Assembly (NCBI RefSeq): GCF_000236865.1
Contig: NZ_HE611015.1
Coordinates: 378,212 to 442,211, forward strand
DNA from: Senegalimassilia anaerobia JC110
Lineage (GTDB): Bacteria > Actinomycetota > Coriobacteriia > Coriobacteriales > Eggerthellaceae
Reading direction: 5' to 3'
DNA length: 64,000 nucleotides
Part shown: in pieces, positions 37,022 through 39,751 of the stretch
How positions within the stretch are numbered: position 1 is the stretch's first letter
Layout: each line of letters starts with the position of its first letter
The notes under the pieces: model-generated
What the model was told of the DNA's origin: nothing
What the model saw: only the letters and a program-made list of their open reading frames with translations
Databases searched by the model: none
Program-made: the position numbers and the translations under genes

Positions 37022-37143
37022 GTTTGGCCCCTTCCCTTCCAAGCTCATAGGTTATGTGCATATTCTACCGCACCTGCGCCAAGGCGGCGGCGGCGCGGGC
37101 GCGGCGGGCATATAATGCTGACAAGAACGAGGAAAGGGGCTTT

Positions 37144-37614
37144 ATGGACGGCAATCGCCCGACATATTACAGCTACTTCACCCCCGCCGGCCCCATCACC
37201 GTGGCGGCGAACGGACGGGCCATCACGCGCATCGCTTTGGGAAAAGCCCCGCTCGCGGGCGTTTGCGCGCCGAGCGAGCTGACGAACAAGGCCGCGACGC
37301 AGGTGCAGGAGTATCTGGCCGGCAAGCGCACGTCGTTCTCCCTGCCGCTGAGCCCCTGCGGCACACCGTTTCAACAGCAGGTGTGGGAAGCGGTGGCCGA
37401 CATTCCCTACGCGCAAACCGCGACGGCGGCCGATATCGCCTGCCGCATCGGGCATGCCGGCGCGCATCGGGCAGTGGGCGCGGCGGCGCGGGCCTGCCCG
37501 TTCGCCATCGCGGTGCCGCTGCATAGGCTGGTGCGCGCCAACGGCCAGCCCTGGGGAGAGGGCAAGCCCGCGCGCGTGCGCGGAGCTTTGCTCAAGCTCG
37601 AGCAAAGCCGCTGA
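37144..37614 (+). CDS. Alkyltransferase-like protein lacking the active-site cysteine
   Basis: The 156-aa protein belongs to the O6-alkylguanine-DNA alkyltransferase family: an N-terminal beta domain from MDGNRPTYYSYFTPAGPITV, then the DNA-binding part with TPFQQQVWEAVADIPYAQTA and HRAVGAAARA. The catalytic PCHR is replaced by PLHR (residues 125-128; codons CCG CTG CAT AGG), and the Asn before the usual NP is a Cys (RACPF, C118). Methyl transfer by the normal mechanism is therefore not possible. ATL proteins carry PWHR or similar and flag alkylated bases for excision repair. GAGGAAAGG precedes the ATG at 37144. Confidence 0.85.
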   Translation: MDGNRPTYYSYFTPAGPITVAANGRAITRIALGKAPLAGVCAPSELTNKAATQVQEYLAGKRTSFSLPLSPCGTPFQQQVWEAVADIPYAQTATAADIACRIGHAGAHRAVGAAARACPFAIAVPLHRLVRANGQPWGEGKPARVRGALLKLEQSR

Positions 37615-37747
37615 TTCCGAAGCGACCTGCCGGGACAAAGGCGACGAGCTTGCCGGCCGCTTCGGCATCGCGCAGACCGCGAATAGTAAAGGAAGCCGCC
37701 GGCTCGCAGATCATCATCGGCAGCGGCGACGAAAGGAGATCGCGGAC

Positions 37748-39751
37748 ATGTCGAAATTCGTGATGCCCATAACCACGGCGGTATTGCTGTTCCCGCTGAT
37801 AGCGGCGCTGATCACCGCCCCGTTTCTCATCTACAAGTATCGCAAGGTGGGGAGCGTTCCGTGGCTTCATGCCGCGGCGATGTACTCGTTCGTGTTCTAC
37901 CTGATGTGCGCATACTTTCTGGTGCTGTTGCCGCTGCCTGCCGATCGCACGGCGGTGGTCGCGTACGCTCAGACGCCGCAGCTTATCCCATTCCAGTTCG
38001 TGCGCTCGTTTCTGGCCGAAACCACCGCACGCCTCGACGATCCCTCCACCTGGCTCGCCGCCATCTGCGACCCGTATATGTACGAGGCGTTTTTCAATGT
38101 GCTGCTGCTAGTGCCGCTCGGCGCGTACCTGCGCTACTACTTCCACCGACCTTGGTGGCAGACGCTCCTGATAGGCTTTTGCGTGACGCTGTCGTTCGAG
38201 ACGACGCAGCTCACCGGCATCTGGGGCATCTACGAGCACCCGTATAGGCTCTTCGATGTGGACGATTTGATGACGAACACGCTGGGATGCATGGTCGGGT
38301 TCTGGCTTGCCGGGCCGATCATGCGCGTGTTACCCGATGTCCGCGTTGCCGCACGGCAGGCCGCCGAGCGCGGAACGACCGCATCCGCCACGCGGCGCGC
38401 GCTGACGTTCGGACTCGACCTTGCGCTTTCGCAAGCGCTTGCCGGGTGCGGCTATTTCGCCGTGCACGCTGTGAACGGAAGCCGGCTGCTTGCCGGCTTC
38501 GGTATCGAGCACGCCACGTTCTGGACATGCGAATGCGCGGCCATCGCCGCGGTGTTCGCCTTGTTCCCCGTGATCACACGCGGACAGACGCCCGCCCAAA
38601 AGCTGCTGCGCCTGCGCATCGTTCGACCCGATGCCGCGCCGGCATCCGGCGGGCAGATCGTCTGCCGCTACGCCACCTTGTTCGCCATCGTGCTGCTGCC
38701 CGCATGGGCGTTCGGGCTGGTCGCAGGCGTAGACGATATCCCTACCACTCCCGCCGAGCTGCGCGCGCTCGCGTCGCTGTGCGTGCACGATAAGACGGCC
38801 TTGACCCTTATATGGTGTGCTGGCGTGCTCGCATGGGCGGCCACGCTCGCCGTGCGCGCATGGCGGGCCTGGCGCGGGCGGGCGCCGTTCATCATGCTCA
38901 ACGGCCTTATCAGCGATACCCGCATCATGACCGAAGATGGCATCAAACAGATTCGCGAGCGCACGCACGTGCTCGATGTGAGCAAGGTTGCCGAGCTGGA
39001 GCAGCGCATCGCGGCTTGCGGAACTTCGCTTGGGGCGCTGATGGAGCGCGCCGGATGCGCCATAGCCGACCAAATGCGTTCTTGGGTTCCCGACCCGGCG
39101 CCGATCTTGATCCTAACGGGAAGCGGGAACAACGGCGGCGACGGCTGGGTATGCGGACGTGCGCTCGCGCAAGCGGGATGGCCCGTTGCGCTTGCGTGCC
39201 CGCGACCGCCCGAGCAACTTTCCGCCGAGCCTGCGCGCACGGCTGCGCTCGAGGCGGTTACCGCCGCCGAAGCGCACGGATGGCCACTTTCGGTGCTGGT
39301 CGCGCCAACGCCTGAAGAGCTGTCCCACGAGCTCGATCGCGCTAGCGGCGTGGTCGACGCCATCCTTGGCACGGGCTTCTCCGGCATGCAGGTGCGCGAA
39401 CCGTACGCAACCTGGATACAGCTTGCGAACCGCCGGCGATTCCACGGCAAGCTCGCCCGCAAGCGGATAGGCGGCGGGCACCGCGCGCAGACCGGCAAGC
39501 GCACGCCGGCTCATGCGAAGGCGGCTGGCAAGGCGAAGGACGCGCCGTTCACCATAGCAGCCGATGTCCCCTCCGGCGTTTCGGCGCAAACCGGCGATGC
39601 CGCCCTGCCCCGCATCTATGCCGATGAGACCGTCACCATGATCGTGTACAAGCCAGGCCTGCTTGCCCGCAAGGCCGCCCCCATGACCGGCGTCGTGCGG
39701 CTTGCGCCCCTCGTCGATGACGTCGAGCGCTACCTTGACGCTATGACATAA
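37748..39751 (+). CDS. VanZ-RDD membrane protein fused to a YjeF N-terminal (NAD(P)HX epimerase) domain
   Basis: One open frame of 667 aa begins at the ATG at 37748, after GAAAGGAG. Residues 1-190 form a VanZ domain with about five membrane segments and the SFETTQL and DVDDLMTNTLGCMVGF motifs. Residues 205-375 form an RDD-like domain (TFGLDLALSQ, TPAQKLLRLRIVRPD). From about residue 395 lies a YjeF_N domain with GSGNNGGDGWVCGRAL (about 457), DAILGTGFSG (about 537) and AADVPSGVSAQTG (about 603). A basic insert (KLARKRIGGGHRAQTGKR region, about 561-598) interrupts the last part. The fused domain should repair NAD(P)HX on the cytosolic face. The NnrD dehydratase partner domain is absent. No stop or ribosome site separates the halves. 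Confidence 0.82.
   Translation: MSKFVMPITTAVLLFPLIAALITAPFLIYKYRKVGSVPWLHAAAMYSFVFYLMCAYFLVLLPLPADRTAVVAYAQTPQLIPFQFVRSFLAETTARLDDPSTWLAAICDPYMYEAFFNVLLLVPLGAYLRYYFHRPWWQTLLIGFCVTLSFETTQLTGIWGIYEHPYRLFDVDDLMTNTLGCMVGFWLAGPIMRVLPDVRVAARQAAERGTTASATRRALTFGLDLALSQALAGCGYFAVHAVNGSRLLAGFGIEHATFWTCECAAIAAVFALFPVITRGQTPAQKLLRLRIVRPDAAPASGGQIVCRYATLFAIVLLPAWAFGLVAGVDDIPTTPAELRALASLCVHDKTALTLIWCAGVLAWAATLAVRAWRAWRGRAPFIMLNGLISDTRIMTEDGIKQIRERTHVLDVSKVAELEQRIAACGTSLGALMERAGCAIADQMRSWVPDPAPILILTGSGNNGGDGWVCGRALAQAGWPVALACPRPPEQLSAEPARTAALEAVTAAEAHGWPLSVLVAPTPEELSHELDRASGVVDAILGTGFSGMQVREPYATWIQLANRRRFHGKLARKRIGGGHRAQTGKRTPAHAKAAGKAKDAPFTIAADVPSGVSAQTGDAALPRIYADETVTMIVYKPGLLARKAAPMTGVVRLAPLVDDVERYLDAMT

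Follow-up and report, generated by a model that had tools for sequence, protein, structure and literature searches.

We report that a single open reading frame in the window, the whole stretch of 64,000 nucleotides analysed here, joins a VanZ-RDD membrane protein to the NAD(P)HX epimerase NnrE (YjeF_N domain), that the fusion is genuine and that it is conserved in 12 genera. The architecture is new, its component parts are known and its function is one that we infer. The reading we favour, to which we give a probability of roughly 0.55, is that of an active NnrE tethered to a functional membrane enzyme, VanZ-RDD, with which it may also be coupled. The product would be one integral membrane protein of nine helices. 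It would start with a VanZ-1 Lipocone domain that probably still catalyses reactions of lipid-linked head groups at the outer face, and continue with the RDD domain. Its cytosolic tail would be a complete and active NnrE, the cell's only one, tethered at the inner face, where an Arg-rich disordered loop perhaps holds or orients it at the membrane, and the epimerase would interconvert R- and S-NAD(P)HX for a soluble, separately encoded dehydratase, NnrD.

The gene lies at positions 37748..39751 of the forward strand, the frame being open from 37748 to 39748, followed by the stop, and encoding 667 amino acids; a Shine-Dalgarno (SD)-like AGGAG, seen in the sequence and in a scan, stands at 37734..37738 (+), some 10 bases 5' of the ATG. 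The first-pass annotation had seen VanZ, RDD and YjeF_N joined in one frame, and Pfam confirms all three, each above its curated cut-off. The VanZ domain (PF04892, 3e-26) spans residues 48-188 (37889..38311, +). The RDD domain extends from residue 211 to about 394 (38378..38929, +), ending in PFxMLNGLxSxTRxM, with a match to PF06271 at residues 211-326 (3.5e-7; 31.0 bits against a cut-off of 24.1). The epimerase domain covers residues 411-655 (38978..39712, +), as delimited by Pfam and NCBIfam, AlphaFold2 (AF2), Foldseek and the catalytic lysine K635; its YjeF_N match runs from residue 430 to 637 (1e-28), and the NCBIfam model for NAD(P)H-hydrate epimerase also scores above its cut-off for the tail. 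No Carb_kinase/NnrD domain was found in the protein by Pfam, and it is thus not a bifunctional Nnr (NnrE-NnrD).

A search for the same domain order elsewhere found the fusion, with both halves matched in one frame, in 28 of the 140 genomes of the window's family. The alignment used throughout comprises 26 full-length proteins including the window's own, and leaves out one that is cut at a contig end (G063) and one with a broken frame in NnrE (G068); identity of the relatives to the window protein is 44-74%. Every aligned member has Pfam VanZ and YjeF_N matches, and 25 of the 26 also match RDD at E <= 0.001. No such fusion was found outside the family among 400 genomes of the class or among 397 genomes of the phylum, and when genome contigs were scanned with the NnrE tail, just two distant matches emerged.

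The NnrE half looks catalytically intact, judging by its motifs. G460-NNGGDG, VDAxxGTGF, DxPSG and KPG do not vary among the 26 fused proteins, in agreement with the earlier observation that the NAD(P)HX motifs are kept. In the alignment K635 (codon 39650-39652, +) corresponds to K192 of E. coli Nnr, a lysine numbered from Met6 that is RefSeq position 197; a lysine occupies this place in 26 of 26 fused and 46 of 46 unfused NnrE proteins, and its replacement by alanine in E. coli Nnr lowers epimerase activity by at least 95% (PMC5938422). In the AF2 model most blocks of the NnrE domain, the insert excepted, have pLDDT values near or above 90, and Foldseek retrieves 2ax3, 3rss and 2dg2, with TM0922, AIBP, yeast YNL200c and human Edc3 (E between 1e-9 and 3e-8 for the TM0922/AIBP fold). 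The fusion thus has in common with the N-domain of E. coli Nnr, TM0922 and AIBP/NAXE the fold, NNGGD, VDAxxGTG, DVPSG and the catalytic lysine; it differs from them in carrying a nine-helix VanZ-RDD module instead of NnrD, and in an Arg-rich insert that makes one loop some 20-55 amino acids longer.

The fusion is the only YjeF_N copy in the window's genome. NnrD, whose presence elsewhere had been raised as a point to check, is a separate frame of 344 amino acids on a different contig of the same genome, and in the 28 genomes with the fusion NnrE and NnrD are on separate contigs or far apart. The two are encoded apart throughout the 140 genomes of the family, as against 97% fused among prokaryotes that have both genes (PMC5938422). 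A bifunctional NnrE-NnrD was confirmed in a sister family (G207, L120); it has the same epimerase domain, whereas in the window's family NnrD is separate and the epimerase sits on a membrane partner. Family-wide, NnrE was found in 104 genomes and not in the other 36, while NnrD was found in 137, which makes the epimerase the more dispensable partner, as has been reported more widely too (PMC5938422). Because the R and S epimers interconvert spontaneously, and NAD(P)HX is close to normal in an E. coli mutant of the epimerase (PMC5938422), a strong need for an epimerase sited at the membrane is doubtful. As for the first-pass interpretation, its membrane-tethered epimerase is well supported by the motifs and catalytic lysine, the predicted cytosolic C-terminus and the TM0922/AIBP fold match, but its rationale, NADH repair beside respiratory complexes, is not: no Complex1_51K homologue (NuoF or RnfC) was found in the window's genome, and docking to Complex I or Rnf was dropped for that reason.

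The signatures described for the VanZ-1 Lipocone group, for which lipid head-group chemistry is predicted, are an Asn in helix H2, ExxQ in H3 and DxDDxxxN in H4 (PMC12419801). Their counterparts in the window protein are N117, E151xxQ154 and D170xD172D173xxxN177, all invariant in the 26 aligned proteins save N177, which is kept in 25 (one N177K). Mean pairwise identity is 74% in the VanZ core, 66-70% in NnrE and 47% in RDD, where R217 and one Asp (D224) of the family's Arg-Asp-Asp residues are invariant. The predicted topology has nine helices with the N-terminus out and the C-terminus in, following the positive-inside rule (Lys and Arg high in inner and low in outer loops), which would leave NnrE on the cytosolic side and put the acidic VanZ motif on the outer one; the AF2 model of the membrane part is of moderate confidence (pTM 0.60). 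Judged by its sequence, the VanZ-RDD half is more than an anchor, since no segment is better conserved than VanZ, whose predicted active-site motifs are intact. In one species RDD is reported to act as a cation/proton antiporter, and a membrane protease of B. subtilis is inhibited by an RDD protein (PMC7568657). The neighbours of unfused VanZ-RDD genes showed no lipid or wall theme at the loci inspected.

That the best conserved part is VanZ would also suit a different division of labour, in which NnrE is mainly a cytosolic sensor or regulator and an NAD(P)H(X) or B6-related ligand alters the membrane activity of VanZ-RDD. Fusions have been described of VanZ-1 with cNMP-binding, FHA and HTH domains and of VanZ-RDD with a histidine kinase domain, associations that have been read as signalling (PMC12419801), and there is circumstantial evidence that the epimerase moonlights in vitamin B6 metabolism (PMC5938422). 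We nevertheless consider a mainly regulatory role possible rather than probable, for NnrE shows no variation in its catalytic lysine or in any of its ligand motifs, the genome has no second NnrE to carry out the chemistry, and one species retains NnrE without VanZ-RDD (see below). It remains the most interesting alternative, and would fit the view that the authors of the Lipocone study take of other VanZ fusions with cytoplasmic domains. A more elaborate proposal, which we regard as unlikely, is a switch coupling redox damage to the envelope: NnrE would read the cytosolic NAD(P)H/NAD(P)HX (or B6) state and, via RDD, control VanZ head-group chemistry outside. If true, it would link cofactor damage to cell-envelope metabolism.

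Returning to the favoured reading of a tethered epimerase, the feature that may connect its two halves is the basic insert already noticed as splitting the C-terminal part, which we place at residues 567-598 (39446..39541, +) from the AF2 model and a comparison of loops. In all 26 fused proteins the loop between VDAxxGTG and DVPSG measures 52-85 amino acids and carries a net charge of +5 to +13; in 46 unfused NnrE proteins it has 26-41 amino acids and a net charge between -3 and +5. The insert is specific to the fused clade. It is predicted to be disordered (pLDDT below 50 at residues 571-584), yet its sequence has about 53% pairwise identity, with a GRGRHRKR-like core in most members. That it touches anionic lipid or the cytosolic face of VanZ-RDD is the natural guess; nucleic-acid binding is also conceivable.

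In a tree of NnrE built without the insert columns, the fused proteins form one group (support 89/100) in which a single unfused member is nested, that of a species of the window's own genus (locus L037 of genome G097). Here a soluble NnrE (L037:5703-6467, -) occupies the syntenic site, with the same flanks as in the window, an Ogt-like gene on one side and mfd on the other; VanZ-RDD has been cleanly deleted, the basic insert is gone, and NnrE restarts at an ATG behind its own SD sequence. Given the nested position and the syntenic deletion, the parsimonious account is an essentially single origin, in which the fusion arose once and the membrane half was lost once afterwards, together with the insert. 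The tree of VanZ-RDD can be reconciled with a single origin, its sole intruder (L055) being on a very long branch. Two genera mix fused and unfused species, those of G031 (L029/L071) and of G134/G136 (L031, L032); the fused genome G031 bears the same genus label as unfused species, and its fusion occupies an unrelated neighbourhood, which makes transfer or differential loss probable there.

The deletion in G097 counts against the reading we favour, as it shows the membrane half to be dispensable for retention of NnrE. It agrees better with a neutral fusion, in which a single ancestral joining of two unrelated proteins left each half working on its own, as do the confinement to one family, the single origin and a seam that simply appends NnrE to a complete RDD C-terminus. 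Such neutrality is in our view unlikely: the fusion has been retained intact across 12 genera at 44-74% identity, and a conserved, clade-specific basic insert within NnrE disappears together with the membrane half, both of which suggest that one half has adapted to the other. It is from this retention, and from an insert gained and lost with the fusion, that we infer coupling of the two halves in the tethered epimerase; the co-occurrence of insert and fusion comprises two independent events only.

At the seam, PFIMLNGLISDTRIM has the look of a linker but belongs to the RDD module, of which it forms the end. The tail PFVMLNGVMTNTRVMS is also present in unfused VanZ-RDD proteins of sister families, and NnrE begins about 15 residues beyond it; with this RDD C-terminus occurring in unfused proteins as well, the seam is that of a clean gene fusion. 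The unfused proteins share with the fusion the VanZ-1 motifs, the RDD domain and the PFxMLNGxxSxTRVM tail, but stop at a short tail where the window protein continues into a metabolite-repair enzyme. An invariant Met394 (codon 38927..38929, +; an ATG in 26 of 26) falls at the junction and could be an internal start that additionally yields soluble NnrE. This is very improbable, and we rejected it, as no SD-like sequence precedes Met394 in any of the 26 genes, whereas about two thirds of the main starts have one, and as the Met is part of the RDD C-terminal TRVM motif; most unfused VanZ-RDD proteins have TRVM too, and this shared tail assigns Met394 to VanZ-RDD. A GC-rich frame could in principle conceal an error, but no actual evidence of one was found, and a frameshift or assembly artefact at about 38880-38930, which the first-pass annotation had named as a danger, is practically eliminated by the same open frame across the junction in many independent assemblies of relatives, single-contig genomes included. 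Nor does any unfused relative inspected have VanZ-RDD adjoining NnrE as two genes with a stop between. BLAST rows with internal stops had suggested such adjacent genes in G279 and G038, and the loci disagree: in G279 the gene after VanZ-RDD is PurF-like, and in G038 there is an NnrE but no VanZ-RDD.

The text of the Lipocone study (PMC12419801) does not name NnrE as a partner of VanZ, and none of the papers searched pairs VanZ with the hydrate epimerase. The closest parallel is the plant fusion of NnrE with pyridoxine phosphate oxidase (PMC5938422), likewise a union with a partner other than NnrD, though there the partner is a soluble B6 enzyme and here it is a membrane protein. The epimerase is puzzling in that its reaction proceeds in part by itself, yet the enzyme is conserved and humans do not survive its loss; it has been suggested to moonlight (PMC5938422). 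A conserved natural fusion to a membrane enzyme offers this protein a concrete candidate partner. Conversely, it supplies VanZ-RDD proteins with a cytosolic enzyme of measurable activity and ligand, and the species that lacks both membrane half and insert is a natural control.

The surroundings of the gene vary within the family. In 14 of 18 fused loci (L058-L067, L069, L070, L072, L074) gpsA-like, often plsY-like, and der-like genes lie convergently just 3' of the fusion; the window's genus is without this arrangement and has mfd neighbours instead. The conserved neighbour 5' of the fusion (37054..37614, +), assigned by Pfam (PF01035/PF02870) and synteny, is an Ogt/MGMT-like gene in which the acceptor-cysteine motif PCHR reads PLHR. 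Its relatives have PTHR, PDHR, PSHR or PCHR, a repeated loss of the alkyl-acceptor cysteine as in alkyltransferase-like proteins.
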